Assembly (NCBI RefSeq): GCF_000717025.1
Contig: NZ_JNXG01000002.1
Coordinates: 1 to 64,000 of the forward strand
From: Streptomyces atroolivaceus
Lineage (GTDB): Bacteria > Actinomycetota > Actinomycetes > Streptomycetales > Streptomycetaceae
DNA length: 64,000 nt
Direction: 5' to 3'
Shown: positions 4,684 through 30,720 of the stretch, one piece after another
Position numbering within the stretch: position 1 is the stretch's first letter
How the letters are laid out: each line of letters opens with the position of its first letter
The notes under the pieces: model-generated
The model's database searches: none
Told to the model about the DNA's origin: nothing
The model's input: the letters and a program-made list of their open reading frames with translations, nothing else
Translations under genes and position numbers: made by a program

Positions 4684-6285
4684 TCAGCCCGGTCCGGGTG
4701 CCGGAAGGCGTTCCCGCCAGCGGGCGCGGGCCTGTTCCTCGGAACGGAGCAGGACCAGTGCGGGCAGTCCCTGGTCCCGGCCGGCCGAGAGCAGCTCCGG
4801 AAGCTGGGGAAGCGGAGCCACGGCCGCGACGTCGTCGAGGACGAGCGTCATTGGTGGGTCGAGCCGACCGTCGGTTGACCGTGCGGCCATGCGGCGGCCG
4901 TGCTCGACCACGTGCGAGGCGAGTGCGGTGAGCAGGGGCATCGCACCGGGGTGGTGGCGGGGATCCTCGATGGGTTCACCGACCACATAGAGCGTTCCCC
5001 CTTCGCGTGCAAAAGAATCCAGCACGAGCGCATCGGATCGGTTGGGCGTGCACGCCTCACGGATGTGGACCGAGGAAAGGGCGGCGAAGGCCCGTACGGC
5101 CAGTTCCTGGGCCATTTCCCGGCGTTCGGGGTGGGCGGTGAGGGCGGATTCCAGGAGCCCTGCGAGCCCGGAGGCCGCCTTGGGGTGGGTACGGAGCAGC
5201 CGTACCGGTTCGTGGCCGCCGGAGCCGGAGGCCCAGCGGTGGACCTGGCGGAACGGGCGGCCGTCCACGGCAGCGGCGTGCAGCCAGCACTGGAGCAGTG
5301 TCTGGGCGGTGTCGGCGACGGCCGCGTCGACCCTGGCCGTCGGGCGGACCGGGGTGAGGAGTGCGGCGGCCCGGGAGGCCGCCGTGGCGGGGTCCTCGCA
5401 GCCGGCGGTGGGCGACCAGTGGAGGCGGGCCGGGGTGTCGCAGAGGTGGCCGGGGTCGTAGACGAGGACCGGGCCCAGCTTGCTGCGGGCGTCCTTCGTC
5501 TCGGCCCAGACGGTGGGGTCCGAGGTCACGACGAGCGCGGAGCCGGCGGCGTCCCTGATGGCCTGGACGACGGTGGGGCGCCGGGTGGCGGAAGCGCCGT
5601 AGAGGACTTGAGGGGTGCGTGGTGCGGGGACCGGTGGGGAGGTCTCCTGCGCGTAGGCGGCGAGGGCTCCGGCGGGTGAGGTCTCCTGCGTGTGGGGGGT
5701 GAGGGGTGCCGGAGCTGGTGAGGGCTCCTGCGTGGGAGGGGCGACGGCTGCGGGCGCCGGAGCCGTCTCGACGGGCGCCGGAGCGGTGGCGGTCACGGCA
5801 GGGGCCGGGGGTGCTTCGGCGGGCGTCGTCCGCCGCGCAGGTTCCTGGGCCGCCTGGTGGGTGCGTACGGGTTCCCCTTCGGGCTCGTACGGTGCCGGGG
5901 CCGCGCTCTGCTGCTTCCGGACCAGCCGCCAGCGCGCCACCACCCCGACCGCGAACACCGCCAGGACCAGCAACACCATCACTTCGCCGATGAACAGGCC
6001 CCAGAACAACCCGTATCCGGAGAGCTCGCCCGGCGGGGTGTCCGGCCAGGCGCCCGGCAGGTCCGCCGGCTCGACGGCCAGGGCGCGCAGGGCCAGGGGA
6101 GTCCGCATGAACGTGACACCGTCCGGCCACCCTCCATGGGCGAACAGCCCGGCCAGGCCCGTGGCCGTCCAGGCCAGCACCATGAGCCCGAAGAGACAGC
6201 CGAGGAGGCCGATCAGCAGGCCGTCCGGGATGCCGCCCTGGCCCTCGCCGCCGCGTCCCGGGCCTGATGGTGCCTGGCGTGCCAT
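4684..6285 (-). CDS. VirD4/TraG-like coupling-protein homologue with degenerate Walker A
   Basis: 533 aa. Two N-terminal membrane segments (about residues 22-48 and 90-112) precede a Pro/Ala/Thr-rich linker of ~100 residues with imperfect APAPxx and QETSP repeats. A RecA-like domain follows that resembles VirD4/TraG from just after the P-loop: SALVVTSDPTVWAETKD, a VLVYDPG strand, and Walker B MTLVLDDVAAVAPLP near residue 490. Where Walker A should lie the sequence reads YGASATRRPTVVQ, with no GxxGxGK[ST], so ATP hydrolysis is doubtful. Last gene of the six-gene cluster, 1 base after the VirB4-like gene. Could be a structural or DNA/protein-recruiting subunit. By recalled synteny this is part of the S. 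coelicolor cmdABCDEF locus (SCO4126-4131). Confidence 0.8.
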   Translation of the reverse strand: MARQAPSGPGRGGEGQGGIPDGLLIGLLGCLFGLMVLAWTATGLAGLFAHGGWPDGVTFMRTPLALRALAVEPADLPGAWPDTPPGELSGYGLFWGLFIGEVMVLLVLAVFAVGVVARWRLVRKQQSAAPAPYEPEGEPVRTHQAAQEPARRTTPAEAPPAPAVTATAPAPVETAPAPAAVAPPTQEPSPAPAPLTPHTQETSPAGALAAYAQETSPPVPAPRTPQVLYGASATRRPTVVQAIRDAAGSALVVTSDPTVWAETKDARSKLGPVLVYDPGHLCDTPARLHWSPTAGCEDPATAASRAAALLTPVRPTARVDAAVADTAQTLLQCWLHAAAVDGRPFRQVHRWASGSGGHEPVRLLRTHPKAASGLAGLLESALTAHPERREMAQELAVRAFAALSSVHIREACTPNRSDALVLDSFAREGGTLYVVGEPIEDPRHHPGAMPLLTALASHVVEHGRRMAARSTDGRLDPPMTLVLDDVAAVAPLPQLPELLSAGRDQGLPALVLLRSEEQARARWRERLPAPGPG

Positions 6286-6286
6286 G

Positions 6287-7705
6287 TCATGCCACCGTTG
6301 ACTCGGACGACTCGTTCAGCCGTTGCTGGTTCTCGATCCGTGCCGCGCGCTGCTCCGCCTCCAGCTCCGCGGCGCGTACGTCCTCGGGGAGCAGGTCCAT
6401 CGCGGAGCCTTCGGTCATCGCCCGGTCGGTGAACACCAGGGGGCGTTCCGCTTCCGTGATCAGGTGCTTGACGACCTGTACGTTGCCGTTGACGTCCCAT
6501 ACGGCGATGCCCGGGGTCAGCGTCGGGATGATCTCGACAGCCCACCTGGGCAGGCCGATGACCTTGCCGGTCGCTCTGGCCTCGTCCGCCTTCTGGGCGT
6601 AGATCGTGCGGGTGGAGGCCATCTTCAGAATGGCCGCCGCTTCCTTTGCCGCGGCTCCGTCGACGACGTCGCTGAGGTGGTGGACGACCGCCACGAAGGA
6701 CAGCCCGAGGCGTCGCCCGAACTTCAGCAGCCGCTGGAAGAGCTGGGCGACGAAGGGCGAGTTGATGATGTGCCAGGCCTCCTCGACCAGGAAGATGCGC
6801 TTCTTCCGGTCGGGCCTGATCCAGGTGTGTTCGAGCCACACGCCGACGATCGCCATGAGGATCGGCATCGCGATGGAGTTCCGGTCGATGTGCGAGAGGT
6901 CGAAGACGATCAGCGGTGCGTCGAGGTCGATGCCGATCGTCGTCGGGCCGTCGAACATTCCGCGCAGGTCACCGTCGACGAGCCGGTCCAGGACGAGGGC
7001 GACGTCCAGGCCCCAGGCCCGTACGTCGTCTATGTCCACGTTCATCGCTTCGGCGGACTCGGGTTTCGGGTGGCGCAGTTGCTCCACGATGTCCATCAGG
7101 ACCGGCTGGCGTTCGGTGATGGTCGCGCCGACGTACGCGTGGGCGACCTTGAGCGCGAAGCCGGACCGCTCGTCGAGGCCATGGCCCATGGCGACCTCGA
7201 TGATCGTGCGGAGCAGTGCGAGCTGCCCGGTCGTGGTGATCGACGGGTCGAGGGGGTTGAGCCGGATCCCGTCGTTCAGCGCGGCGGTCGGGTCGAGCCG
7301 GATGGGCGTGATGCCCAGTTCCTGGGCGATGAGGTTCCACTCGCCGACGCCGTCCTCGCCCTGGGCGTCCAGGACGACGACCTGGCGGTCGCGGAAGCGG
7401 AGCTGGCGGAGCACGTACGTCTTCTCCAGGGCCGACTTGCCGTTGCCGGACTCGCCGAGCACCAGCCAGTGCGGGGCGGGGAGCTGCTGCCCGTACAGCT
7501 GGAAAGGGTCGTAGATGTAGCCCTTGCCCGAGTACACCTCACGCCCGATGATCACGCCGGAGTCCCCGAGGCCGGGTGCGGCGGTCGGCAGGTAGACGGC
7601 CTGTGCCTGGCCCGTCGACGTACGCACGGGAAGGCGGGTCGTCTCGACGTTCCCGAAGAGGAAGGCGGTGAAGGCGTCCGACAACGCGGACAGCGGATCT
7701 CGCAT
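6287..7705 (-). CDS. VirB4/TraC-like secretion ATPase (C-terminal RecA domain)
   Basis: 472 aa. A short N-terminal region (~85 residues) precedes an intact RecA-like motor: Walker A LVLGESGNGKSALEK, a post-P-loop VVVLDAQGE strand, Walker B RIFLVEEAWHII, and the FVAVVHHLSDV motif typical of VirB4 C-terminal domains. This is the only apparently competent ATPase in the cluster. The usual VirB4 N-terminal domain is absent; it seems to be carried by the preceding gene (7724-9274), separated by 18 bases. Probably the energy source for a membrane translocation or DNA-handling complex; by recalled synteny part of the cmd locus affecting differentiation. Confidence 0.88.
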   Translation of the reverse strand: MRDPLSALSDAFTAFLFGNVETTRLPVRTSTGQAQAVYLPTAAPGLGDSGVIIGREVYSGKGYIYDPFQLYGQQLPAPHWLVLGESGNGKSALEKTYVLRQLRFRDRQVVVLDAQGEDGVGEWNLIAQELGITPIRLDPTAALNDGIRLNPLDPSITTTGQLALLRTIIEVAMGHGLDERSGFALKVAHAYVGATITERQPVLMDIVEQLRHPKPESAEAMNVDIDDVRAWGLDVALVLDRLVDGDLRGMFDGPTTIGIDLDAPLIVFDLSHIDRNSIAMPILMAIVGVWLEHTWIRPDRKKRIFLVEEAWHIINSPFVAQLFQRLLKFGRRLGLSFVAVVHHLSDVVDGAAAKEAAAILKMASTRTIYAQKADEARATGKVIGLPRWAVEIIPTLTPGIAVWDVNGNVQVVKHLITEAERPLVFTDRAMTEGSAMDLLPEDVRAAELEAEQRAARIENQQRLNESSESTVA

Positions 7706-7723
7706 GGCGTGACTGCCCTCTCG

Positions 7724-9274
7724 TTAGCGTCGGATGCCGGTGGCGAACGGCAAGGTGTTCACGAAGGCGCGGTGGTGCTCACGGTCGCACCACTCCAGCT
7801 TCAGATACGACTTGCCGGCGGAGGCCCGGATCGTCCGCTTGTCGCGGGCGAGTGCCTCGGGGGACCGGGACGACACGGTGATGTACCCCACCAGGTTCAC
7901 CCCGGCCGCTCCGCTCGCCAGATCTTCACCCCGCTGGTCGAGCCTGCCGTGGGCGGCGATGTCGCGGGGGTCGACTGTGCGGTTCATCTTGGCCTGACGG
8001 CTCGCCTCGGCGTCGTCGTTGGTCTTCTCCGTCAGCATCCGCTCGATGGCCACTTCGGTGGGTTCGAGGTCCATGCAGACCGCGACCGTGCGGATGACGT
8101 CGGGCGTGTGGACGAGGAGGGGGGCCAGGAAGTTGACCCCTACGGGGGTCATCGGCCATTCCTTCACCCAGGCCGTGGAGTGGCACCAGGGGGCACGCGT
8201 CGTCGACTCGCGTGTCTTGGCCTGCAGGAACGTCGGCTCGACCGCGTCCAGTTCGGCCGGCCAGGCGTTGCGCTTCGTCATCGCCTGGATGTGGTCGATG
8301 GGGTGGTCCGGGTCGTACATCGAGTGGACGAGGGAGGCCAGCCGGCTCTGGCCGAGGGGCTGGCGGACCCGGATGTCGGCCTCGGCGAGCCGGGCGCAGA
8401 TGTCGGTCAGTTCGCGTGCCATGACGACGGCGAGACCCGCGTCGCGGTCGATCCTGCGGCCGCCCTGGGGGCGGATGGCACGGGCCATGGCGTTGGCCTC
8501 GGCGGCCAGGTCGCGGCTGTAGTGCATGCAGGCGACGAGGTAGGCGCGGTGCTGCTCGCTGGAGGTGGAGACCATCGACTGGAGCTGGTCGTACGACTCC
8601 TGGAGCCAGCCTGGCGCGGTCCTGTCACCGCGCTGGGCGACGTCCTTGGCGTGAGCGTCGGGGTCGGCGGGGAGCGTGCGGGCCAGCATCTGCAGGCGCG
8701 TCACGAAGCCGTCGCCGTTCGCCACGTGCTTGAGCAGGGTGCCGAAACGGTCGACCAGGGCCTCCTGGTCCTCGCTGTCGCGAAGGCCGACTCCGGGGCC
8801 CTCGATCTCGATGGCGGCGGTGACCGTACGCCGGTCCGCGTGCAGCAGCACGGCGATCTCGTCAGGGCCGAACGGTGCGGCGAGCCAGCTGATCCGGCCG
8901 ATGCCGGGCGGCGGTCCGATCTCCACCTCGCGCCCGTCGGCGCTTACGCCCGCCTCCATGGCGGAGGACCGGTAGGCGGTGCCGCGGCGCAGGGTGCGCT
9001 TGAAGCTGCGGTTGATCTCGAACCACTTGTAGAAGGTGCGGCCCTTGTAGGGGACGTACACGACGGCCAGGGCCAGCATGGGGAAGCCCACGAGCGCCAC
9101 GATCCGCAGGGAGAGGACCGGGACGAGGAGCCCGCTCATCATGCCGAGGAACGCTCCGGCGATGATCAGGGCGATCTCGCCCGTCTCCCGGTTCTTGCCG
9201 ACGATCGCGTTCGGCCGGGCACGGCCGATGAGATACGTACGGCGGGGCGCGATCGTGTGGGACTGGGTCGTCAA
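7724..9274 (-). CDS. SCO6880-family protein (PrgI/VirB3 plus VirB4 N-terminal-like)
   Basis: 516 aa. The N-terminus (TYLIGRARPNAIVG) is followed by two close membrane helices (about residues 32-75) and then YKGRTFYKWFEINRSFKR, the layout of PrgI/VirB3-type proteins. The remaining ~430 residues resemble the non-catalytic N-terminal domain of VirB4 and lack a P-loop. It overlaps the TrbL-like gene by 4 bases and precedes the ATPase by 18. Together with that ATPase it appears to make up a VirB3-VirB4 unit split differently from the usual one. The family name is recalled from actinobacterial annotation; its biochemical role is unknown. Confidence 0.82.
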   Translation of the reverse strand: MTTQSHTIAPRRTYLIGRARPNAIVGKNRETGEIALIIAGAFLGMMSGLLVPVLSLRIVALVGFPMLALAVVYVPYKGRTFYKWFEINRSFKRTLRRGTAYRSSAMEAGVSADGREVEIGPPPGIGRISWLAAPFGPDEIAVLLHADRRTVTAAIEIEGPGVGLRDSEDQEALVDRFGTLLKHVANGDGFVTRLQMLARTLPADPDAHAKDVAQRGDRTAPGWLQESYDQLQSMVSTSSEQHRAYLVACMHYSRDLAAEANAMARAIRPQGGRRIDRDAGLAVVMARELTDICARLAEADIRVRQPLGQSRLASLVHSMYDPDHPIDHIQAMTKRNAWPAELDAVEPTFLQAKTRESTTRAPWCHSTAWVKEWPMTPVGVNFLAPLLVHTPDVIRTVAVCMDLEPTEVAIERMLTEKTNDDAEASRQAKMNRTVDPRDIAAHGRLDQRGEDLASGAAGVNLVGYITVSSRSPEALARDKRTIRASAGKSYLKLEWCDREHHRAFVNTLPFATGIRR

Positions 9275-10602
9275 CGCCCTCCCCCTCCTGTGCTCGTGTT
9301 ACCTGTGCTGCCTGAACCGCCTCGTGGGGAGCGGCTGCCGTGGGGGGTGCCGGCGGTGGGCCCGGCCCCGCTGCGGGGCGAGGGCGCGGAGCCGCCGCCC
9401 GTGTTCCGGGAGCTGTGGGCGGCGACACCGCCGCTGACCGGGTTGGAGGGCCGGGCGCCTCCGCCACCGCCGTCACCGCCACCGCTGCGGCCGCTGTGGG
9501 TCTTGATGCCCTGGGAGACGAGAGCGGCGGGCGAGCTGATCATCGCTGCGGCCTGGGAGCCGTCGGTGGCCTGCTTGCGGTTGGTGCGGGCGCCCTGGAT
9601 CTCGTCACCGAAGCCGGGGACGAAGCGGTAGATCATGGCGGACGCGAAGATGGCCAGCAGGATGATCGCCAGGCCGGACACGACGGCCGAGAAGGCGTTG
9701 GGCCCGTCGTCCGCGGAGAGCGCGCCGGCCAGCCCGAGCACGATGACGATGACGGGCTTCACCATGATCACGGCGATCATGATGCCCGCCCAGCGGCGGA
9801 CGTGGCCCCACATGTTCTTGTCGACGAGCCCGGAGTACACGACGACACCCAGCAGGGCGCCCACGTACAGCAGGGCGGCCCGGATCACGAGCTCCAGCCA
9901 CAGGATGCCGGCGGCGAGGATCGACACGAGCGAGACGACGATCAGCATGATCGGCCCGCCGCCGATGTCCGTGCCCTTCTTCAGGGCCTCGGCGAAGGAC
10001 CCGAAGAAGACGTCGGTCTGCCCGCCTGTCGCGGCGGAGATGACCTCGGTGACGCCGTCGGTGGCCGAGACGACCACGTACAGGATGAGCGGGGTGAAGG
10101 CGGAGGCGAGGACGGTGAGCCAGAGGAACCCGATGGCCTCGGAGATCGCGGTGGTGAAGGGCACGCCTCTTATGGCGCGCTTGGCCACGGCGAAGAGCCA
10201 GAGGACCAGGGTCAGGATGGTGGACGCCGCGAAGACGACGGCGTACTGGGTGCGGAAGGTGGGGTTGGTGAAGTCGACGGTCGCCGTGCTCTCCACGGCC
10301 TCGCTGAGCTTGCCGACGAGGTAGGCGGCGGCGTCGGCACAGCCGCGGGCGAGGGAGGTGAGGGGGTCCAGGGCGTCGGGGGTGGTGGAGGGGGTGCTGC
10401 GCGCGCCGGCGCCGGCTTCGCCGTCCTCGCAATAGTCCTTGGCGAGCCCGACGATGAGGTCGCAGGGGTTGTCGCTGGTGCTGGGCGATGGAGTCGGTGT
10501 GGGGGCAGCGTAGGCACGAGATGCCAGAGCAACCGTCCCCGCCGACAGGCCACCCAAGAGCCCGGCGATCGAGAAGCCGCGGGACCGGCGGTTATCGGGC
10601 AT
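9271..10602 (-). CDS. Polytopic membrane protein, TrbL/VirB6-like
   Basis: 443 aa from the ATG at 10602, chosen because GGAGG lies 9 bases upstream; an earlier in-frame start at 10632 lacks a site. A signal-like N-terminal helix (about 10-32) precedes an extracytoplasmic Pro/Ser/Asp-rich stretch with a Cys pair, then about six strongly hydrophobic helices (residues 125-340), and a Gly/Ser-rich cytoplasmic tail of ~90 residues. This matches TrbL/VirB6 channel components. It overlaps the upstream gene by 11 bases and the downstream gene by 4, so expression is tightly coupled. Confidence 0.8.
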   Translation of the reverse strand: MPDNRRSRGFSIAGLLGGLSAGTVALASRAYAAPTPTPSPSTSDNPCDLIVGLAKDYCEDGEAGAGARSTPSTTPDALDPLTSLARGCADAAAYLVGKLSEAVESTATVDFTNPTFRTQYAVVFAASTILTLVLWLFAVAKRAIRGVPFTTAISEAIGFLWLTVLASAFTPLILYVVVSATDGVTEVISAATGGQTDVFFGSFAEALKKGTDIGGGPIMLIVVSLVSILAAGILWLELVIRAALLYVGALLGVVVYSGLVDKNMWGHVRRWAGIMIAVIMVKPVIVIVLGLAGALSADDGPNAFSAVVSGLAIILLAIFASAMIYRFVPGFGDEIQGARTNRKQATDGSQAAAMISSPAALVSQGIKTHSGRSGGGDGGGGGARPSNPVSGGVAAHSSRNTGGGSAPSPRSGAGPTAGTPHGSRSPRGGSGSTGNTSTGGGGR

Positions 10603-11461
10603 AGGTGAAGCCTCCATATCCCTCAACCGCACCGGCGATTTCGTCCGCAGTCGAGGCCCGGTTGTCCCCGTTGACGGGTGTCGGCCCTTCTGCCTGACTC
10701 GACGACTCGATCTTCCAGTCGCCGCCCACCCACCTGAGCTTCTCGGTGATGGTGAACCAGGTGGCGGTGACGGGTTTGGTCGATCCTTGGCCCGCCATGC
10801 CGACGAGACCCGTACACCAAACTTCCACGGTCGCGGCGTCCGCGCCGTGGGCCGTGACCTTCGTGCCCACTGGAATGGTCCTGGAGACGAAAGTCAGCCC
10901 GCTGGGCGTGCTGCCGTCTTCGTTCAGTCCGACGTTCGTAAGGAAGCCTGCGGAGTATGCCTCGGCCATGTCGGCCTTGAGCGTCGCCACGACGGCGGGG
11001 TCGTGGGTTGCCTCCAGGATGCCGTCACGCTTCGTCTTGTCGAACATCTCCGCAGACCCCAGCGCGACCGCGTAATTCGCCGCCGCGCTCTGCGCCCCCT
11101 GCTCGTCATGCGCGAAGCCCGAGGCGATCGTGCCGTTCTTGCCCTGGACAGGCTTCGTGCCCGTCGCGGCCGTGGGGCCTGCCCCTGCCGCGTCAGGCTT
11201 CTTCTCGCCGTCACTGCCCGAGGCCCCGCCCCCGCCCTGGTTCGCGAACGCGATCGCCGCGATCAACAGCACCACCACGCCCACCACCATGATCAGCGAG
11301 CGGGAGTTCCGTGCCGGCCGGCGGCCGTAGCCGTCTCCGTCGTCGACGCCGCCGGGCAGGCGCGTGCGCGTCTGGCGCGTCCCGCCGAGAGTGCTGTACG
11401 CGTCGTCCGCGCGGCCCCCCGGTTCGTTCCCGCCGTATCCGCGCTCATCACCCTGGCTCAT
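10592..11461 (-). CDS. Single-pass membrane protein, TcpC/VirB8-like
   Basis: 289 aa. A charged, Gly-rich cytoplasmic N-terminus (~55 residues) and one membrane helix (SLIMVVGVVVLLIAAIAF, about 55-73) precede a soluble outer domain of ~200 residues beginning after a Gly/Ser linker. The outer domain has the alternating strand/helix character of NTF2-like VirB8/TcpC proteins (ATVEVWCTGLVGM; TWFTITEKLRWVGGDWKI). Position between the pilin-like and TrbL-like genes supports a VirB8-type scaffold, though sequence similarity alone is modest. Confidence 0.72.
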   Translation of the reverse strand: MSQGDERGYGGNEPGGRADDAYSTLGGTRQTRTRLPGGVDDGDGYGRRPARNSRSLIMVVGVVVLLIAAIAFANQGGGGASGSDGEKKPDAAGAGPTAATGTKPVQGKNGTIASGFAHDEQGAQSAAANYAVALGSAEMFDKTKRDGILEATHDPAVVATLKADMAEAYSAGFLTNVGLNEDGSTPSGLTFVSRTIPVGTKVTAHGADAATVEVWCTGLVGMAGQGSTKPVTATWFTITEKLRWVGGDWKIESSSQAEGPTPVNGDNRASTADEIAGAVEGYGGFTYAR

Positions 11462-11647
11462 GCCGCGTACGCCCCCTCGACCGTGTGCAGTTCCGCGTAG
11501 TACGACGGTAGCGGTGCTGGTTTCCGCGTGGGCGCGGTGTGGTGACTCGACATCAGGGGACGCAACCTCTGCCGGTGGGCACGACGGACGGATGGTGTGG
11601 GGTGGACGGGGGCGGGCCCGGGGGCAGGGTGGCGGAACGGCAGCCGG

Positions 11648-11956
11648 TCAGACAGCCATTCCGTACACGATCGTGAACAGTGTGCCCAGCGATCCGATGA
11701 TGAAGACGCCGGTCAGCCCTGCCACGATCAGGCCCTTGCCCTGTTCCGCGCTGAAGGTGTCGCGCAGCGCCGTCGCGCCGATGCGCTGCTTCGCCGCGCC
11801 CCAGATCGCGATGCCGAGGCAGAGCAGGATGGCGATCGCCATCACCACTTCGATCATGATGCGTGCTTCGTTGCCCAGGGTCCCGAACGGCCCCCAGTTC
11901 GGGGCGATTCCGCCGATGATGGTGGTGATGTCGCCCTTTTCCGCTGCCAGGATCAT
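11648..11956 (-). CDS. Small two-helix membrane protein, VirB2-pilin-like
   Basis: 102 aa from the ATG at 11956 (MILAAEKGDITTI); AGGGG lies 11 bases upstream. Two hydrophobic helices (about 34-54 and 77-100) flank a short basic loop (AAKQRIG), the topology of VirB2/TrbC pilins, although no classic long signal peptide is seen. It opens the leftward T4SS-like operon; 186 bases separate it from the next gene (11462-11647), where no ORF or convincing terminator was found. It could form an oligomeric membrane ring rather than a pilus. Confidence 0.7.
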   Translation of the reverse strand: MILAAEKGDITTIIGGIAPNWGPFGTLGNEARIMIEVVMAIAILLCLGIAIWGAAKQRIGATALRDTFSAEQGKGLIVAGLTGVFIIGSLGTLFTIVYGMAV

Positions 11957-12689
11957 GTAAGTCACCGCCCCTGTTGGGTAGTTCGCAGCCCGCGCCGTGC
12001 GACACGGGTCGGTCTCTATCTTCGCTGATGAAACCGGCATCGCACGACGCCTTCCCGGGTCTCTTTACCCGGATCTCGCACGTTTGACCGGAGAAGCTGC
12101 CCTGACCTGCGGCTCCTGTCGGGATCTGCCTGCATATGCATGGTTACTCTGTGTATCACGAGGTGTGACGGCTAGCAACGACGGAGGCCATGGGTTCCGG
12201 GTCCGGTTGGTGCGTTCACGGGATGTCAGGCATTCGTACGCGCTGTTCGAGAGCCGTGTACGCGCCGGTGGCTTCAGGCCGACGCGTCGTCAGGTGCCGG
12301 GCCGGGAAGGGCGCGCGGCCTCGGAAGCCGGAGCGCTGTGTGTACGGGCGTCGGGCCTCCGGGTGGGGCCGGTCGGTGGGACGGTGGCTTGAAGTCGCAC
12401 CAGGTTCCGCCGAACGGATGTGCCCTGGACTTGGCGAGGCGGGCCGCATGCTCACCCTCGGCGCGAACCGCAGTCGCCTTTTGCGCGGACCGGTGGGCGG
12501 GGTGTCCGGTCGTCTCCTCGAACGACCGCTCGTCCTTCCATTTCCGGCTGCGGTCCGCCGCCACGCGTCGGCCGGCTCGTGCCCGGTCGGGCCGGTGTCC
12601 TGCCGTGACGGGTCCGGCGCTCCGGGTTCTCGTAGCAGCTGCCGAACTCCTGCTTCCGCCCGAACGGCCGGAACGCCGCGTGCCCGTGG
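11957..12689 (-). other. 733-bp gene-free interval upstream of the T4SS-like operon
   Basis: No ORF here has plausible protein composition on either strand; the longer open frames are Arg/Pro/Gly-rich by-products of GC skew. The part next to 11956 must hold the promoter of the leftward T4SS-like operon, but no unambiguous -35/-10 pair stands out. A slightly AT-richer patch lies at about 12125-12180. The aldo/keto reductase gene ends at 12690, so this is also the boundary between the core cluster and the accessory stretch. Confidence 0.5.
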
Positions 12690-13592
12690 TCACCGCGTGA
12701 GGAGGGCCAGGTCGTCGGCGCTGAGCCGGAGGGCGCCGGCGGCCACGTTCTGTGCGAGGTGATCCGGATTGCCGGTACCGGGGATGGCCAGAACGTGAGG
12801 CCCCTGGTGGAGCGTCCAGGCCAGCCGCACCTGTGCGGGTGTGGCCCCGTGGCTGCGGGCGACGGTCAGCAGCGCCTCGCTCTGGGCGCCGTTCGAGCCC
12901 TCCTCGCGCCCGGCGCCGGCGATGGCGAAGAACGGCACGAAGGCGATGCCCTGCTCGCCGCAGTCGCGCAGGAAGGCGTGGTCTCCGGCCGGGGAGTCGA
13001 TGCCGTACGCGTTCTGTACGCAGACCACGGGTGCGATGGCGTGGGCCTCGGCGAGCTGTTCCGGCGAGGTGTTGGAGATGCCGAGGTGGCGTATGAGCCC
13101 GGCTTCGCGGAGGTCGGCAAGGGCGCCGAAGTGATCGGCGACGGATGCGGAGGCCTGACTGGTCGAGAGGCGCAGGTTCACCACGTCCAGGTGCTCGCGG
13201 CCGAGTTGGCGCAGGTTCTCCTCCACCTGGCCGCGCAGCTGCTCAGGAGTGGCCCAGACCCATGCGCCGGAGGGGTCGCGGCCGGGGCCGACCTTGGTGG
13301 TGATGACCAGGTCGTCGGCGTACGGGGCGAGGGCGCTGTTAATGAGCTCGTTGGCGGACCGCAGCGGTGAGAAGTAGAAGGCCGCGGTGTCGATGTGGTT
13401 CACGCCCAGCTCGACGGCCCTGCGCAGGACGCGCAGGGCCCGGTCCCGGTCGCTGGGGGCTCCGTCGGCGAACGCCGCGCCGCTCTGGGTGAGGCGCATG
13501 GAACCGAAGCCGAGACGGTTGACCGTGAGGTCGCCGAGCTTCCAGGTGCCGGATGCCGATGCGTTGATCGTTTCCGATGATGAGGGCATCAT
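12690..13592 (-). CDS. Aldo/keto reductase
   Basis: 300 aa, near full length for single-domain aldo/keto reductases. NADPH-dependent TIM-barrel motifs: LGFGSMRLT at strand 1, HIDTAAFYF (catalytic Asp and Tyr), VITTKVGPG (catalytic Lys), and a cofactor loop AIPGTGNPDHLAQNV near the C-terminus. The usual His at the end of strand 4 is replaced (DVVNLRLS), as in some family members. Substrate unknown. It sits alone in the accessory stretch, 9 bases downstream of a kinase remnant on the same strand. Confidence 0.92.
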   Translation of the reverse strand: MMPSSSETINASASGTWKLGDLTVNRLGFGSMRLTQSGAAFADGAPSDRDRALRVLRRAVELGVNHIDTAAFYFSPLRSANELINSALAPYADDLVITTKVGPGRDPSGAWVWATPEQLRGQVEENLRQLGREHLDVVNLRLSTSQASASVADHFGALADLREAGLIRHLGISNTSPEQLAEAHAIAPVVCVQNAYGIDSPAGDHAFLRDCGEQGIAFVPFFAIAGAGREEGSNGAQSEALLTVARSHGATPAQVRLAWTLHQGPHVLAIPGTGNPDHLAQNVAAGALRLSADDLALLTR

Positions 13593-13601
13593 CGGATTCT
13601 T

Positions 13602-13748
13602 TCACCCGTCCTGCTGCCCCAGGCGGTTGATGACGGCCTCCGCGACGCGGGACGCCGGTATGCCGGTGGTGTCGACGGCCTCCGCCTCCCTGCGCGGCAA
13701 CGGCAGGGCGTCCCGGTAGGCGGACAGGTGGTCGAGGTGCCACTGGGC
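13602..13748 (-). pseudogene. C-terminal remnant of a P-loop kinase/AAA-type protein
   Basis: About 48 residues ending at a stop at 13602 read like the tail of a small nucleotide-binding kinase: WHLDHLSAYRDALPLPRREA, then VDTTGIPASRVAEAVINRLG. No Walker A, start codon or RBS is present upstream; the frame continues as Arg/Pro-rich nonsense antisense to the DUF3291 gene. It looks like a 5'-truncated gene left by a rearrangement. The exact 5' limit is unclear. Confidence 0.5.
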
Positions 13749-13831
13749 GGCGTCGGCGCTCCCGGGCGGACGCGGTCCTCGCGGTCCGGAGGGCGGGTGC
13801 GGGCTGCGGGTGAGATCCGCGAATCCGCCGG

Positions 13832-14341
13832 TCACGTGGCCGGTGAGCTGCCGATCATGGTGTCTGGCGGTACGGGGGCGGGCGGCGGGTGCGGTGCCCG
13901 GAAGGTGAACGCCCCGGGTCCCTCGCCGTTCTTGCGGATCAGGGCGATGCGTTCCATCGCCTCGTCCACGCTCGGGCGGTGTCCGGCGGGGATCCACCAC
14001 ATCGCGTGGTGGAAGTCGGCGAGACGCTCGAACCATTCCCGGCGCCGCGCGAGCACCTTGAGGTGTGCGCTTCGGTAGGTGTAGTCCTGGAGGGCTTCGA
14101 CCGATTCCCAGACCGAGCAGTTGATCAGGAACAAGTCGTCGTCGTCCTGGGGGCGCAGCCCTGTCGAGTCGGCCCCGCCGCCGTCGACCATGCGCCAGAC
14201 GAAGCCGGGAGCCTGATCGGCGAGGGCGTTGATCTCCGGGAGCTGGGCGACGAAGCCGGCCAGCTGAGGACTGTCGAGCGGGGCGAGGATGCGCCCGACG
14301 TTGACCTGGGCGAGGTGGAATTCGTTCACGGGGCCAAGCAT
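13832..14341 (-). CDS. DUF3291 domain-containing protein
   Basis: 169 aa covering one DUF3291 domain: FHLAQVNVGRILAPLDSPQL at the N-terminus, then a VWRMVD strand and SVWESVEALQDYTYRSAHL, which give it a ferredoxin-like monooxygenase fold. The conserved AHLKVLARRREWFE and MWWIPAGHRPS segments are present. Function is not established; the fold suggests a small oxygenase or ligand-binding role. It lies 37 bases downstream of a Cys-rich ArsR-type regulator on the same strand, so that regulator probably controls it. Confidence 0.85.
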   Translation of the reverse strand: MLGPVNEFHLAQVNVGRILAPLDSPQLAGFVAQLPEINALADQAPGFVWRMVDGGGADSTGLRPQDDDDLFLINCSVWESVEALQDYTYRSAHLKVLARRREWFERLADFHHAMWWIPAGHRPSVDEAMERIALIRKNGEGPGAFTFRAPHPPPAPVPPDTMIGSSPAT

Positions 14342-14378
14342 GCCCGGGTGAACCTTCTAAAGTCAATGAATGCTGTTT

Positions 14379-15083
14379 TTAGACCTCCTTGGTGACTTCC
14401 TTGGTGCCGTCCTGGGCGTCCTGGGCGTCCTCGGCGACCGCGAGGGAGACGCAGCACCCTCGCGGAAGCGGATCCATGGCCGCGCTCCAGTCCTGACCGT
14501 CCGGCAGCCCTGCGAGCAGGCCCTCGATCCCGGCCAGGTTCATCCCGCAGACGAGGGCGGGGAACTGATCTGCCAGCGCGTGGAACGGGCAGTTGTTCAG
14601 CCGCAGCCTGTCGCCGTCCCAGAACGGCTCGTAGCCACGTGCGCGCAGGATCTCGACCGGGTCCGCCTCGCCGTCCGGGGCGCCGCCCTCGGACTCGCCG
14701 GCCGCCCTTGCCGCCGCCTGCAGGTCCCCGTCGAGCCCGGCCCGCTCCACCACCTCGGCCAGCAGCCGGCTCACCGCGTCGTACGAGCGGGGCGGCACGG
14801 ACACCGTGTGCTCCCCCTCGGCCCGCCGGTACATCTTCGAAGGCCGCCCGGCTCCCGGCCCGCTGCGCCCCGAGAGCCGCCGGAAACACACCTCGAGCAG
14901 CCCGGCCTCGACCAGTTTGTCCAGGTGGAACGCGGCCAGTGAACGGGAGATCCCGGCCGCCTCGGCCGCGGCGTCCCGGCCCACCTCGCCCGGTGTGCCG
15001 GTGACGTGCCGATACAGTCCACGCCGCACCGGATCACCCAGCACGACCAACGCCTCGATGGCGGAATCCTCACTGCTGCTCAC
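14379..15083 (-). CDS. ArsR-type HTH regulator with SufR-like C-terminal cysteine motif
   Basis: 234 aa. A winged HTH occupies about residues 8-80 (DPVRRGLYRHV, AAAEAAGISRSLAAFHLDKL, then a wing with GPGAGRPSKMYRR). The C-terminal part has a motif seen in Fe-S sensing SufR-like regulators: NNCPFHALADQFPALVCGMN, then 30 residues later a GCCVSL Cys pair. The cysteines are well placed to bind an iron-sulfur cluster, so this may be a redox or Fe-S responsive repressor of the following DUF3291 gene. Metal binding is inferred from cysteine spacing only. Confidence 0.8.
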   Translation of the reverse strand: MSSSEDSAIEALVVLGDPVRRGLYRHVTGTPGEVGRDAAAEAAGISRSLAAFHLDKLVEAGLLEVCFRRLSGRSGPGAGRPSKMYRRAEGEHTVSVPPRSYDAVSRLLAEVVERAGLDGDLQAAARAAGESEGGAPDGEADPVEILRARGYEPFWDGDRLRLNNCPFHALADQFPALVCGMNLAGIEGLLAGLPDGQDWSAAMDPLPRGCCVSLAVAEDAQDAQDGTKEVTKEV

Positions 15084-15150
15084 GGCACAATTCTATGACC
15101 AACGGCGGTTGGTGATTCGGGAGCGGCGGCCGGGTGACCGAACGGTTCCG

Positions 15151-17748
15151 TCAGGACCTCTCGCGCAGGGTCGCGGTGAAGCTTCGGCCGTAGGCGTGGT
15201 GGGTCGTCACGTCGAGGCGGGTGCCACCGGGGACAGGGCGGACGCGGACTCCGGGGTCGGCCGAGACGCGCCGCAGGGGCGGGCCGTGGAGGGTGACCGA
15301 CAGGGAGCGCCGCGTCGTCGTCGGGTCGGACACCGCGATGGAGTACGTGCCGCCCCTGGTCCGCCACAGCATGACCGACGCCGGACCGTCGATCGAGAGG
15401 TGTCCGGCGCGGTGCGTCCCAGGGGTGAACGTATTGGCGGCGGTGATGCCCAGCCGGCTGTGTTGTGCGGCCTGCAGGCGGACCGTGTTGGACAGCACGG
15501 AGAGCGGGCCGTGGGCGTAGGACGCCAGCTGTTGCGCGGAGGCGTTCGGGACGAGTGCGTGCGCCATGGAGGCCGGCCGCTCTCCGGCAGCCTGTTCGTA
15601 GGACAGTGTGAAGACCTGTTTGGTCACTGCGGTGTCCGGGTTGGCGAGACGCACGAGCCGCCTGCTGCGGGTGACCGTGTCGAGGGCGACGAGTACGGGC
15701 GGGCCGGACAGGAAGACGTACCCGACCGCGGTCTTCTGCTCCTCGTCGGCGTACCGCAGCCAGGCCGGCGGGGAGGATCCGGCCCTCTGCCAGGGTGCTC
15801 CGTCACGGAGGCCCCCGGTGATGACGACGGGAGCGGAGGGGGCGGCGATGCGGCTGTCGACCGTCGTGGTCACCGCGCGGCCCGACAGGCCGGTCACACC
15901 TGCCGAGAGCACGAGGATCTCGTCGTCGAACATGAACCACGACCTGGTGGCGCCGGCCGCCCGGTACGCGACGAGGTCCTCGGGGAGCGTGCCTGCCTCC
16001 CGGGCGGCGTACGCGGCGTCGTCGGACTGCACGAGACCGGCCACGCCGTAGGCGCCGAGGCGGGCGCCGCCGGAGTACCGGTGGGTGCCGCGAGGGAAGT
16101 AGACGTAGGTGTTCTGCGACTCGGAGGACGACGTGAAGCCCCGCCCGGGGTTGTCGTACCAGAGGGTGCCGTAGAGCTCGGGGACGGTGCGCCGCGTCTC
16201 GACGGGAGCGGTGACGCCTGCGAGGCGGTAGGGCTCGACAGCGGTGAGGTAGTCGATGCCGAACGCCTGCCGCTGGTCCGCACCGGAGAGGTAGAGGTGG
16301 TGGGCGCCGTCACCCTGGAACCAGGGCATCAGGTTCTCGCCGCTCATGTACTCGTACTTGCTGATCCGGTCGGAGCTGCGGGCGAGGGCGAAGGCATAGC
16401 CGGGCCGGCGGTGGACGGTCCGGTCCATCGCGTTGAACGCCGAGTGGGAGGCGGCGGGGCCGAGGTCCTTGGCGGGCGTGGGGGAGGCCAGGATGTCGGC
16501 GTGGCGGACGATGCTGACGGGGGAGACGAAGGACGTGGTGTCGAGGCTCGCCTTCGAGGTCTGCCGGAGGAACTTGACGTAGCCCTCCAGGGCCTCGGCG
16601 TCGCTGCCGGACGTGTGCGCGGACAGGTCGACGACGGCCTCGACGACGGCGGTGACGTCCGCGTACCCGGTGCCGGTCCGTGAGACCGCGCGCCCTTTGA
16701 CGATCTCCATCATCCAGCCCTCGAAGATCAACGGGGCGAAGCCGTCGGTGATCCACCCCTGGACGACGCCGGCCAGGCTGTCGTCAGGGATGTAGCCGGT
16801 GCCGTCCAGGATCTTGAGGGTCTGGACGATCCGGGTGAGAAGTCCCTTGCCGTAGGAGCCGGTGTACGCGACGGAGGCGTGCTGGACGAAGGAACCGTCG
16901 GCGTAGAAGCCGTCGGTGACCCCGTGGCGCGGCGCGTACGGGTCGATCGTCGCGAAGACGGTCAGCTGGTCGGCGAGGGCTTTGCTGATGCGGGCGTCGT
17001 CGCCGAGCAGGGCGCCCTGGAGGATCCGGTTCGTCGTGATGTCGGCGAGATTGGCGCCGGTGTGGAAGCGTGAGTCGAGGTCGACGTCGCCGTCCTTGCC
17101 GTTACGGAGGTACGCGTCCATGGAGGCGACGTACGTCGCTGTGAGTTCCGGCCGGTACGCCGCCACCTCGTCCCTGAGCAGGACGAGGGTCTTCGTCACG
17201 TGGGCCGGGATCCCGATCTCCCAGTGGAACCAGTTGCCGTAGTAGCCCTTCGCCTGGTCGCCGAACCAGTCGTCGTGGAGGCGTACCAGGCCCTCGACGA
17301 CCCGGCGCCGGATCTCTGTGCCGTCGGAGGCGGTGGCACCGGGCAGGCAGGTGGCCAGGGCGATCTCGTAGAGGTACTGGTACGACGTGCTCAGGTTGGG
17401 GTCGCTCGTGCCGAGTGGGAGGCCCTTGAAGAGCTCGTCCCGCCCGGCGCCGTCCATCGCGGCGAGCCGGGCGTGCGCCGTCGTCCGCAGGGAGGCCAGT
17501 TTCGCGGCGGCCTCGGGGCGGGCGTTGGAGGCGGCGGTGCCGGCGAAGATCGCGACGGTATTGCGGAGGAGGGCGGCCCGGACCTCGGCCGAGGGGCCCG
17601 AGCGGTTCGGGGAGCCCGACGAATTCCCGGAGCGCGGGGCGGCAGCCCGGCCGGGCCGGGGATCCGCCTCGGCCCGCAGCGCCTGGGACACCGCCCAGAG
17701 CGTGGCGGCGGGGATCACGGACAGTGCGGAACGACGAGAGAGCTCCAC
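15151..17748 (-). CDS. Secreted polysaccharide lyase family 8 (hyaluronate/xanthan lyase type)
   Basis: 865 aa from the GTG at 17748; a GTG at 17754 is only one base from the GGAG site and less likely. A Tat-like signal (SRRSALSVIPAATLWAVS) predicts export. The alpha/alpha toroid holds the PL8 active-site segments: NWFHWEIGIP, TGANLADITTNRI (catalytic Asn), a His/Tyr segment DGSFVQHASVAYTGSYG, and arginines near MDRTVHRRPGYAF with SGENLMPWFQGDG. Beta-sandwich domains follow. It would cleave uronate-containing polysaccharides by beta-elimination; hyaluronate, chondroitin and xanthan are all possible. Monocistronic. Confidence 0.92.
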   Translation of the reverse strand: MELSRRSALSVIPAATLWAVSQALRAEADPRPGRAAAPRSGNSSGSPNRSGPSAEVRAALLRNTVAIFAGTAASNARPEAAAKLASLRTTAHARLAAMDGAGRDELFKGLPLGTSDPNLSTSYQYLYEIALATCLPGATASDGTEIRRRVVEGLVRLHDDWFGDQAKGYYGNWFHWEIGIPAHVTKTLVLLRDEVAAYRPELTATYVASMDAYLRNGKDGDVDLDSRFHTGANLADITTNRILQGALLGDDARISKALADQLTVFATIDPYAPRHGVTDGFYADGSFVQHASVAYTGSYGKGLLTRIVQTLKILDGTGYIPDDSLAGVVQGWITDGFAPLIFEGWMMEIVKGRAVSRTGTGYADVTAVVEAVVDLSAHTSGSDAEALEGYVKFLRQTSKASLDTTSFVSPVSIVRHADILASPTPAKDLGPAASHSAFNAMDRTVHRRPGYAFALARSSDRISKYEYMSGENLMPWFQGDGAHHLYLSGADQRQAFGIDYLTAVEPYRLAGVTAPVETRRTVPELYGTLWYDNPGRGFTSSSESQNTYVYFPRGTHRYSGGARLGAYGVAGLVQSDDAAYAAREAGTLPEDLVAYRAAGATRSWFMFDDEILVLSAGVTGLSGRAVTTTVDSRIAAPSAPVVITGGLRDGAPWQRAGSSPPAWLRYADEEQKTAVGYVFLSGPPVLVALDTVTRSRRLVRLANPDTAVTKQVFTLSYEQAAGERPASMAHALVPNASAQQLASYAHGPLSVLSNTVRLQAAQHSRLGITAANTFTPGTHRAGHLSIDGPASVMLWRTRGGTYSIAVSDPTTTRRSLSVTLHGPPLRRVSADPGVRVRPVPGGTRLDVTTHHAYGRSFTATLRERS

Positions 17749-17867
17749 CAGCACGCTCCAAAGTCCGGCCTGTAAGCGCTTGTTCCCGTATCACCCAGCC
17801 AAGCAACGGTCTCTCGCCGGTGTCAACGGCCGGGGCGTTGTCAGTGGCCTCGACTACGGTCGACCGC

Positions 17868-20141
<2,274 letters not shown>

Positions 20142-20228
20142 CGGGGCGGTCCGTGCCGTCCTCGTCCGCGTCGTGGAGGCCTGCGTCTCACGTACAGCAC
20201 CACTGCTTCAACTCGCCGGGCCGACGTT

Positions 20229-20245
20229 GACTAGAATCGTCTCTC
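20229..20245 (+). promoter_or_regulatory. Putative -10 element for a leaderless transcript
   Basis: TAGAAT at 20232-20237 ends 8 bases before the ATG at 20246, and no Shine-Dalgarno sequence is present. This spacing would put transcription start at or next to the A of the ATG, the arrangement of leaderless mRNAs common in Streptomyces. A weak -35 (TTCAAC, 20207-20212) is 19 bases upstream. Confidence 0.5.
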
Positions 20246-20605
20246 ATGTCGAAGCCTGACGAACTGCTCGTTGACGTCGCCACGCTGGTGGAGTCCGGGC
20301 ACAGCAATCAGATGTCTCTGACCGTGGTCGCCGGTGGCGCTGTCATCACCGGCCGGCTGGCTCCTGAAGCGGTCTGGCGGCAGCGGGTGTCGGAGGTCCT
20401 GGCGGACTCGGCCCGCCTGAGTGATTTCTCCGCCGTCTTCACTGCCACGATGCGCGAGGAGAAGCCGCCCACACATCTGCACTTCCACGTGGCGCGGATT
20501 CTGCAGGGCACGGTGGGAATCCCCGAGACCGGCGGGATGTACCGCGTGGCCATCGACGACGTCAGCGCCTGGACCATGGGCGACTTCAGCTACTCCGATC
20601 ACTGA
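20246..20605 (+). CDS. Conserved hypothetical protein, 119 aa
   Basis: 119 aa, acidic, no membrane segment or signal peptide. Composition and codon use are typical of the host, so it is a genuine gene. I do not recognise the family. The hydrophobic N-terminal third (LLVDVATLVESGH, MSLTVVAGGAVITGRL) and the central PPTHLHFHVARILQG strand suggest a small alpha/beta fold. No RBS is visible; translation may start from a leaderless mRNA. Downstream is another unrecognised small gene in the same direction. Confidence 0.72.
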   Translation: MSKPDELLVDVATLVESGHSNQMSLTVVAGGAVITGRLAPEAVWRQRVSEVLADSARLSDFSAVFTATMREEKPPTHLHFHVARILQGTVGIPETGGMYRVAIDDVSAWTMGDFSYSDH

Positions 20606-20728
20606 CCTGGCTCGCCCTCAGCAACCCGTCGGTGCCGCCGGATGTGCGGTACCCGGCGGGTGGCGCGGCTCCCTCTCCACGAGCCGGCCGGCCGGTCACG
20701 GTCGTGGGCGGTCCGGCATGACGCCAGG

Positions 20729-21163
20729 GTGAGCATCATCGTCGAGTTCTTCGCCGCTCCGGATGACGCGTCAGCGGCTCTGGTTCTCCGGACCGGGCCG
20801 CAGCGCGTCTTCGAGTCGCTCTCCTTCGGCACCTTCGATCCCGAGGAAGCTGTGGTCGAGTGGCAGTGCCTTCTTGCCGGGGACAGCTTCGAGGAACTCG
20901 TCGAAGCCGGTGAGCCTCGTCCCGTCGCCGACGCGGGCGATGACGGGTGCCTCGTCTTCGCGATCGCGCCTCGCCTGTCCGCGGCACTGGCCGAGGCTGA
21001 GCAGTCCGAGTTGAAGGATGCCGCTCTCACGTGGTCGTCACAGCGTGCGGAGGACGGGGAGGTCATCGACACGGAGATGGCCTCCGTGATCCTCGGTGAC
21101 CTGGCCGCTCTCGTCCGCAGCGCCCGAAGCCAGGGCCAGGGTGTCTACTGCTGGGTCGCGTAG
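20729..21163 (+). CDS. Hypothetical protein, 144 aa
   Basis: 144 aa from the GTG at 20729 (VSIIVEFFAAPDD); codons upstream to 20642 are unlike protein. Acidic and soluble, with strands at the N-terminus, a central helix-rich part and a C-terminal LAALVRSARSQGQGVYCWVA. Small acidic streptomycete proteins of this style are common, but I cannot name the family. No strong RBS is visible. It lies 123 bases after the preceding hypothetical gene and could be co-transcribed with it. Confidence 0.65.
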   Translation: MSIIVEFFAAPDDASAALVLRTGPQRVFESLSFGTFDPEEAVVEWQCLLAGDSFEELVEAGEPRPVADAGDDGCLVFAIAPRLSAALAEAEQSELKDAALTWSSQRAEDGEVIDTEMASVILGDLAALVRSARSQGQGVYCWVA

Positions 21164-21718: not shown

Positions 21719-21743
21719 CGCACCTCTCTGTGGAACGCGTGGA

Positions 21744-21774: not shown

Positions 21775-21795
21775 GAAGGAACTGCTACACCATCT

Positions 21796-22867: not shown

Positions 22868-22878
22868 CTTGAATCTCC

Positions 22879-24383: not shown

Positions 24384-24385
24384 GG

Positions 24386-29615: not shown

Positions 29616-29697
29616 CCCCCCGTAGCCGCCCCTGACGCCCCCTCATGCACCCATCCGTCCGTACACACCAGCGAATCGCGTCGTGAACCACGCCCGA

Positions 29698-30720
29698 ATG
29701 GGGGATGGTTGGGGGGTGCGGAAATACTGGGTGTTCGTCGGCGGTGGGATCGGGCTGGGCCTGTGCTTCATCGCCCTGCTCGTCGTCGGTACGTACTCCG
29801 CCGCCGCCGGGATCGCCGGGGCGGGCGGGGCCGTCGGGTTGGCCAAGGGGGCGGTGCCCGCGCGGTACCAGCCGCTCGTGGAGAAGTGGGGCAACCTCTG
29901 CCCGGCCATCAACCCCGCTCTCTTGGCGGCGCAGTTGTACCAGGAGAGTGGCTGGAATCCGCGCGCCCAGAGTCATGCCGCAGCACAGGGCATCGCGCAG
30001 TTCATTCCCGGGACCTGGGCCTCGCACGGCATCGACGGGGACAAGGACGGGGACCGGGACGTATGGGATCCGGCCGACGCGATCCCGTCCGCCGCGTCGT
30101 ACGACTGCGAGCTCGCCGGGTACGTCCGGAAGGTGCCGGGTGACCCGACCGACAACATGCTCGCCGCGTACAACGCGGGCGCCTACCGGGTGATCCAGTC
30201 GGGCGGGGTGCCCAGGATCAGCGAGACGCAGAATTACGTCAAGATCATCCGGTCCCTGGAGAAGAGCTTCGCCAAGCCGGTCGGCCGGGTGCAGCCCTCG
30301 CAGCAGGCGGCCGGGGCGATCTACTTCGCGCAGGAGAAGCTCGGCACCCCCTACCTCTGGGGCGGGAACGGCACGGCCGACCAGGGGGGCCGGTTCGACT
30401 GTTCCGGGCTGACTCAGGCCGCGTACCGGACGGTGGACATCGAGCTGCCCCGGGTGGCCAACGATCAGTACAACGCCGGGCCGCACCCTTCCAGGGACGA
30501 GCTCCTTCCCGGTGACCTGGTGTTCTTTTCGGACGATCTGAACAACTCGCGGGCGATCCGGCACGTGGGCCTCTACGTCGGCGGCGGCTACATGATCAAC
30601 GCGCCGTACACCGGTGCGGTGATCCGGTTCGACAAGATCGACACCCCGGACTACTTCGGTGCGACAAGGGTCACCAAGGACGGCGCTGCGGCCCTCCCGA
30701 CCGCGCTCCCGGAAAGCTGA
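29698..30720 (+). CDS. Bifunctional lytic transglycosylase / NlpC-P60 peptidoglycan hydrolase
   Basis: About 340 aa; ATG 29698 is given, GTG 29683 or GTG 29716 are alternatives (a G-rich stretch precedes the last). One N-terminal membrane helix (VFVGGGIGLGLCFIALLVV) anchors it. An SLT domain follows (LLAAQLYQESGWNP with catalytic Glu, AAQGIAQFIPGTW, NMLAAYNAGAY). A C-terminal NlpC/P60 domain has FDCSGLTQAAY (Cys), RHVGLYVGGG (His) and a third polar residue further on. This two-domain type serves as the VirB1/TcpG-like wall-opening enzyme of Gram-positive T4SS. By recalled synteny it belongs just beyond the T4SS-like cluster. Confidence 0.92.
   Translation: MGDGWGVRKYWVFVGGGIGLGLCFIALLVVGTYSAAAGIAGAGGAVGLAKGAVPARYQPLVEKWGNLCPAINPALLAAQLYQESGWNPRAQSHAAAQGIAQFIPGTWASHGIDGDKDGDRDVWDPADAIPSAASYDCELAGYVRKVPGDPTDNMLAAYNAGAYRVIQSGGVPRISETQNYVKIIRSLEKSFAKPVGRVQPSQQAAGAIYFAQEKLGTPYLWGGNGTADQGGRFDCSGLTQAAYRTVDIELPRVANDQYNAGPHPSRDELLPGDLVFFSDDLNNSRAIRHVGLYVGGGYMINAPYTGAVIRFDKIDTPDYFGATRVTKDGAAALPTALPES

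Follow-up and report, generated by a model that had tools for sequence, protein, structure and literature searches.

A type IV secretion-like core with a degenerate coupling protein at the Streptomyces cmd locus, probably kept for development

The first 64,000 nucleotides of contig NZ_JNXG01000002.1 (G000:C2 in our sample), from an 8.2 Mb assembly of Streptomyces atroolivaceus, are referred to here as the window; they carry six leftward genes that we identify as the cmd cluster and, apart from it, a gene for a cell wall hydrolase resembling TgdA. With somewhat more confidence than doubt, we take these genes to encode what is left, through vertical inheritance, of the core of a conjugation-type machine of actinobacteria, related to type IV secretion systems (T4SSs), which has lost its substrate-coupling half and been kept for development. 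This reading draws on gene content, the modelled folds of CmdC and CmdE, the decay of the coupling protein CmdA, the linkage of tgdA to cmdF, conservation and phylogeny. Given that the coupling part is dead or missing, and that a model species is known to require cmd for normal sporulation, we suggest that the machine now acts on the cell envelope and not in the movement of DNA.

Results

The window cluster is the orthologue of cmdABCDEF

The initial annotation had proposed a likeness to the S. coelicolor cmd locus, and this was confirmed: the gene order in the window is that of SCO4126-4131 (cmdABCDEF), and the Walker A lysine of the window CmdB is residue 90, the same number as the published K90. 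No lysine lies near residue 404, the number of the second published CmdB lysine, in the window protein. We conclude that the window cluster is the cmdABCDEF orthologue, an assignment made by gene order, the SCO4132-like hydrolase and K90 and not by comparison with the S. coelicolor sequences themselves.

Neither the locus nor its link to T4SSs is new. The available portions of a 2009 paper (PMC2782261) already describe the similarity of CmdB to VirB4, a RecA/FtsK-like motor prediction, relatives on plasmid SLP2 (SLP2.19-23) and a speculative type IV-like channel. According to the same source, cmd mutants are defective in aerial growth and sporulation and have unevenly distributed nucleoids; deletion of cmd disturbs branching, impairs septation, leaves 6-8% of spores anucleate and brings actinorhodin production forward, and mutant phenotypes were found in three Streptomyces species. 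CmdB is membrane-located, a K90-mutated CmdB does not complement, cmdB transcription rises with aerial growth, a cmdA deletion makes no apparent difference to sporulation, and transfer of an SLP2-derived plasmid is unaltered in a cluster mutant. A transposon screen (PMC6585502, as available) hit cmdBCDEF; tgdA (SCO4132) mutants overproduce actinorhodin, as do cmdBCDEF mutants, and SCO5677, a gene whose identity we could not establish, gives the same phenotype. These published mutants bear out the earlier proposal of a use other than conjugation. The available portions of PMC2782261 mention neither a dead VirD4 nor roles for VirB1, VirB3 or VirB8, and we found no description of CmdA as a degenerate VirD4, or of TgdA as its VirB1, in the accessible parts of the open-licence PMC literature. 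What we add to the known locus is a dead or locally absent coupling ATPase, the VirB1 link, a moving cmdF-tgdA pair and a split VirB4.

The cmd genes encode a predicted T4SS-like core

The relevant features of the window are as follows.

cmdA, 4684..6285, minus strand: predicted pseudo-VirD4, with two hydrophobic segments and a RecA-like domain
cmdB, 6287..7705, minus strand: predicted VirB4 C-terminal ATPase domain with an intact P-loop
cmdC, 7724..9274, minus strand: two transmembrane (TM) helices (VirB3-like), then a predicted VirB4 N-terminal domain; NCBIfam SCO6880 family
cmdD, 9271..10632, minus strand: polytopic membrane protein in the VirB6/TrbL place, assigned by place and topology only
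cmdE, 10592..11461, minus strand: one TM helix and a predicted NTF2-like domain, VirB8/TcpC-like
cmdF, 11648..11956 (longest open reading frame, ORF, to 12040), minus strand: small two-TM, VirB2-pilin-like protein with no profile match
conserved 15-bp block CGTGATACACAGAGT, 12146..12160, minus strand: upstream of cmdF
tgdA-like gene, 29683..30720, plus strand: SLT and NlpC/P60 hydrolase, VirB1-like

Gaps of 1, 18 and 186 bases separate cmdA from cmdB, cmdB from cmdC and cmdE from cmdF, respectively; cmdC and cmdD overlap by 4 bases, and cmdD and cmdE by 41 with the longest cmdD ORF or by 11 if cmdD begins at Met11, the start evidently used in the initial annotation. Position 11956 corresponds to Met29 of the cmdF ORF.

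CmdB matches the Pfam families AAA_10 and P-loop_TraG above cut-off, as well as a solved VirB4 structure at the sequence level, and its P-loop is intact around K90. For CmdC, CmdD, CmdE and CmdF we found no convincing direct sequence match to solved structures, and the structures of CmdC and CmdE were therefore modelled. The predicted fold of CmdC contains VirB3 helices and a VirB4 N-terminal domain; that of CmdE contains a VirB8/TcpC NTF2-like domain behind one TM helix, and homologues of CmdE carry the precomputed Pfam domain PF26526. CmdD contains five hydrophobic segments and weakly matches the SCO6881 family; CmdF has two hydrophobic helices and no relevant Pfam match. The Pfam matches, the similarity to solved VirB4 and the two modelled folds thus uphold the T4SS-like architecture proposed in the initial annotation, and support a core with predicted VirB4, VirB3 plus VirB4 N-terminal half, VirB8 and VirB1 components.

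All six ORFs have a coding-like codon composition, and their status as genes is far beyond chance. We examined the best 80 of 587 confirmed loci, all 80 from Streptomyces, a set hence biased to near relatives. By tblastn, cmdA, cmdB and cmdC were present in all 80 loci, cmdD in 77, cmdE in 74 and cmdF in 70; the 10 loci with missing genes are all shorter than 8.2 kb, and in one locus (L025) cmdE lies on the opposite strand. Together with the ORF coordinates, this agrees with the initial description of six leftward, closely spaced genes. Median identity to the window proteins was 93% for CmdB and CmdC, 94.5% for CmdF, 76% for CmdD, 69% for CmdA and 60% for CmdE. Median pairwise ratios of nonsynonymous to synonymous substitution (dN/dS; Nei-Gojobori method, with sequence pairs that are not independent) were 0.10 for CmdB, 0.14 for CmdC, 0.12 for CmdF, 0.42 for CmdD and 0.44 for CmdE.

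CmdA appears to be a degenerate coupling protein

The window CmdA resembles VirD4 in family, as first annotated, but not as a working coupling protein. Its RecA-like domain lacks a Walker A motif and has DD where the Walker B motif of VirD4 has DE. Across CmdA proteins the P-loop region reads, for example, GASATRRPT in place of GxxxxGK[ST]. We aligned CmdA from 142 loci and from the window, 143 sequences that are not all independent; at the P-loop 123 were readable, of which none had GK[ST] and one had GKA. GK[ST] occurs elsewhere in CmdA of L085, L087 and L112, outside the P-loop place, and was rejected as a Walker A. The Walker B acidic pair is DD in 87 and ED in 5 of 92 readable sequences, as against DE in VirD4, and the protein ends about 42 residues past this motif (median, n=72). 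The window CmdA matches the TraG-D_C family over only the first 47 of its 126 positions, and this is the sole TraG-D_C match in its own genome, where none is full-length. The sequence with GKA, L146, is 99% identical to a protein from Carbonactinospora thermoautotrophica; it has lost less of its C-terminal region, has DD at Walker B and represents a half-decayed state; a relative, P0129, likewise combines GKA and DD. Among 16 distinct non-cmd VirD4 genes, 12 have GK[ST], 4 have GKG and none lacks GK. Since GKG lineages exist, losing only the Ser/Thr is not a peculiarity of cmd. These GKG proteins are VirD4-like proteins of other actinobacterial lineages (L137/L159, L138, L139, L157) and have an intact Walker B DE.

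In family f3, the sequence at the cmd locus extends more than 3 kb past cmdB in all 14 genomes, and cmdA was recognised there in none of them. A diverged cmdA was considered for L144 and L147 and rejected, as the open frame that follows cmdB in these two loci encodes an arginase-family protein. The best CmdA-like genes elsewhere in f3 genomes G014, G016, G019 and G020 belong to another T4SS cluster and have GK[ST]; the CmdA profile missed the VirD4 gene of L166. The dead CmdA domain still shows purifying selection within Streptomyces: its median pairwise dN/dS was 0.28, that of the linker 1.04 and that of the membrane part 0.40.

In a sample of 119 genomes of the order, a strong TraG-D_C match (E<1e-10) was found in 61 and none in 58, with this one coupling-protein family searched. 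In about half of the genomes, therefore, the machine runs without an intact VirD4 of the TraG-D_C family. This fits the cmdA deletion, which makes no apparent difference to sporulation, and the transposon screen, which hit cmdBCDEF (PMC2782261 and PMC6585502, as available). We conclude that CmdA is, to judge from its motifs, a degenerate relic or scaffold, and that no active VirD4 coupling ATPase is apparent at cmd. Because CmdA has decayed or is absent, we infer that cmd works without any VirD4.

A VirB1-like hydrolase is linked to cmdF

A hydrolase gene with SLT and NlpC/P60 domains lies directly divergent from cmdF in family f2 (one genome) and in those 10 f3 loci that have enough sequence, and likewise in G137, a genome of the same class but of another family. 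In the window, 17.6 kb and several other genes separate the corresponding gene from cmdF; by domains and place we take it to be TgdA/SCO4132. Homologues (E 1e-60 or better) are present in all 119 genomes of the order sample. The hydrolase gene is on the same contig as cmdB in 105 of the 118 genomes with a cmdB match and on a different contig in 13. It lies within 24 kb of cmdB in 103 of these 105, in every case divergent and on the upstream side; the distances in the remaining two are 257 and 899 kb. In these two genomes, and in G053 and G047, two of the 13 with the genes on different contigs, cmdF is gone from the cmdE-D-C-B-A side and stands divergent beside the hydrolase gene instead. Since cmdF adjoins the relocated hydrolase gene, the two form a unit that moved together, and in G077, G121, G053 and G047, small-genome members of a genus group, cmd is split into cmdF-tgdA and cmdEDCBA. 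The moved divergent pairs are located as follows.

L190:7995-9403, moved cmdF-tgdA pair
L191:8437-9875, moved cmdF-tgdA pair
L192:8207-9615, moved cmdF-tgdA pair
L193:8766-10211, moved cmdF-tgdA pair

We conclude that a VirB1-like TgdA belongs to the cmd system as its seventh gene. The six genes originally described stand, but the cluster is not complete in itself, with a VirB1-like partner at 29683-30720 of the same window.

The interval from cmdF to the tgdA-like gene (12690-29615) holds genes for an aldo/keto reductase, a DUF3291 protein, a helix-turn-helix protein, a polysaccharide lyase 8, an ABC-ATPase protein and an adenosine deaminase, among others; in f2 and f3 the two genes adjoin.

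cmd has plasmid relatives and fits vertical inheritance in the order

The gene cmdB is present in 118 of the 119 genomes of the order. The remaining genome, G106, has F-E-D-C at a contig end and was rejected as a true loss, as its contig begins within cmdC. In a tree of 46 rows, CmdB orthologues form one clade (99/98), which adjoins a Streptomyces plasmid group with weak support (89/77; long branches, midpoint root). Among 246 genomes sampled across the class, the only CmdB match of at least 78% identity outside the order was in G137. These data fit vertical inheritance that goes back roughly to the base of the order, and the near-universal presence and single clade of CmdB sustain that part of the initial annotation. 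The G137 locus (L168) has F-E-D-C-B and a divergent hydrolase gene; its contig ends after cmdB, so that its cmdA cannot be judged, and the stated contamination of this assembly is 6%.

A tblastn search of plasmids with CmdB matched 197 records, at up to 49% identity; in PLSDB, 116 are classed as non-mobilizable, 68 as mobilizable and 13 as conjugative. Among seven plasmid regions retrieved, NBC_00015 unnamed2 and pMDJK44.2 have all six genes in the order F-E-D-C-B-A, an order likewise found on NBC_01519 unnamed1 and NBC_01298 unnamed1. On a Rothia plasmid, E, C, B and A were recognised by profile, D and F were not, and a mobF relaxase gene lies beside them. On NBC_01244 unnamed2, mobF is annotated some 8 kb past the VirD4 gene, yet the PLSDB type of this plasmid is non-mobilizable, as are those of NBC_00015 unnamed2 and NBC_01298 unnamed1. 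The relatives are not all proven conjugative systems. Three plasmid hydrolases encoded next to T4SS genes share 44-50% identity with the hydrolase of the window, and a fourth shares 33% over part of the window protein; two plasmids carry an M23 peptidase instead, without similarity to the window hydrolase. Just behind the T4SS genes of NBC_00015 unnamed2 (L141:20327-26899) lies a CATRA conflict system with a CHAT-domain protein.

Consistent with the initial annotation, a Pfam scan of 46 of the 56 window ORFs (10 unscanned) revealed no gene for a relaxase or an integrase and none for replication. Across the genome TrwC, the relaxase family searched genome-wide, matched just once and weakly (26.1 bits), in a 158-residue open frame on another contig, which was rejected as a relaxase. 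A conserved linked relaxase in relatives had been named as a finding that would count against a machine repurposed from conjugation; mobF does lie near some plasmid relatives with this gene order, but none was seen at the window locus.

Discussion

Several T4SSs resemble cmd in part. The Streptomyces plasmid systems of NBC_00015 unnamed2 and pMDJK44.2 have six homologues in the same order with an SLT/C40 or M23 hydrolase gene upstream, and their CmdB proteins are 40-49% identical; unlike cmd, their VirD4 P-loops are intact (APPREGKT, GPMGSGKT), and some such plasmids have mobF or MOBF typing. S. coelicolor cmd and tgdA share with our loci the six-gene order, K90 and, in relatives of the window, a tgdA-like gene divergent beside cmdF, whereas the window gene is distant. 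The systems of pIP501, pCF10 and Tn916 have the set VirB1, VirB3, VirB4, VirB6 and VirB8 in common with cmd (VirB6 by place only); cmd differs in having VirB4 split into two genes, no linked relaxase seen and no live coupling protein. Bordetella Ptl, Helicobacter ComB and Bartonella Trw are, like cmd, VirB4 machines without a working VirD4. As described in the accessible parts of PMC12857230, Ptl exports proteins already beyond the inner membrane, ComB takes up DNA, possibly with a VirB4-driven pseudopilus, and Trw is thought to make pili. These three work in two-membrane envelopes, whereas cmd occurs in single-membrane bacteria, is chromosomal across an order, is tied to sporulation and retains a dead VirD4 in Streptomyces.

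Because a wall hydrolase and its pilin-like partner, a VirB3/4/6/8-like complex and a single ATPase have stayed conserved, and because of these VirD4-less precedents, we favour a CmdB-driven, CmdF-based envelope machine in aerial hyphae, ahead of Ptl-like export and then of a DNA channel. TgdA (VirB1) would open the peptidoglycan; CmdE (VirB8), CmdD (VirB6) and CmdC (VirB3 plus the N-terminal half of VirB4) would form a complex in membrane and wall; CmdB (VirB4) would be the sole motor and CmdF a pilin-like subunit. CmdA, not found at the f3 locus, would be a dead VirD4 kept in Streptomyces as a scaffold. VirD4-type recruitment would be unneeded, and CmdB would most likely mobilise or assemble CmdF across the aerial-hypha wall; this assembly, the movement of CmdF and the site of action are what we infer beyond the computed data. 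The branching, septation and chromosome defects of mutants may be secondary to an envelope fault. More tentatively, and with doubt outweighing belief, we propose that the whole order has adapted a conjugation machine with a dead or lost coupling ATPase, in which a split VirB4 alone drives a pilin-like structure through the aerial-hypha wall for septation.

CmdB might instead drive a Sec- or Tat-delivered protein, such as a developmental wall protein, through the wall with no need of VirD4. VirD4-less T4SSs that do so exist (Ptl; PMC12857230, as available), substrate gene linkage is not required, and VirB1- and VirB8-like parts are retained. We consider this unlikely, as it lacks a candidate substrate: in an all-against-all comparison of called ORFs from 16 loci of f2, f3 and G137, only tgdA and cmdF, E, D, C and B recur in at least 12 loci and in all three groups, two other ORF families are shared by 4-5 loci and one by 2. 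Less likely again is the 2009 suggestion (PMC2782261, as available) that CmdB or the complex moves chromosomal or plasmid DNA at sporulation septa. The uneven nucleoids, anucleate spores and RecA/FtsK-like motor prediction reported there are in its favour, as is common ancestry with conjugation-type systems. However, the coupling ATPase is degenerate in Streptomyces and unrecognised at the f3 locus, the scanned window ORFs include no linked relaxase, SLP2-derived plasmid transfer was unaffected in the cluster mutant, and the linked partner is a wall hydrolase with a common phenotype (PMC6585502, as available). Finally, cmd could be an inactive relic, a defective integrative and conjugative element. 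One such element lies near mid-chromosome in all 11 Streptomyces strains surveyed in PMC9513070 (as available) and is presumably cmd, but the low dN/dS of CmdB, CmdC and CmdF (0.10-0.14), the presence of cmd throughout the order sample and the mutant phenotypes in three species, which already contradict inactivity (PMC2782261), make this very improbable.

If the favoured CmdB-driven envelope machine is real, a VirD4-independent T4SS derivative is spread across an order and comes with development mutants, which makes the action of a lone VirB4 motor testable, as well as the reason why Streptomyces sporulation requires these membrane proteins. Most Cmd proteins would receive a testable structural role, and TgdA and CmdF are predicted to pair in the same machine.

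Sequences around the cluster

In 59 of 62 upstream regions that were aligned, the block CGTGATACACAGAGT ahead of cmdF is unchanged. It resembles, with one mismatch, the BldD box consensus. BldD-like sites are not enriched in the window, which holds 4 one-mismatch sites against 5.4 expected, and the titles and abstracts of the literature found make no connection between BldD and cmd. We therefore rejected BldD control of the cmd operon and retain the block as a candidate lead only.

Many contigs (L002-L081) stop 0.5-6 kb past cmdB, and the window contig starts just beyond its own two-component genes. A repeat, for instance an rRNA operon, may lie downstream of cmdB. Further along the window (33574-61341), phosphate-uptake-like genes, a polyphosphate kinase gene and a gene for a GlnR-like regulator form ordinary chromosomal surroundings.

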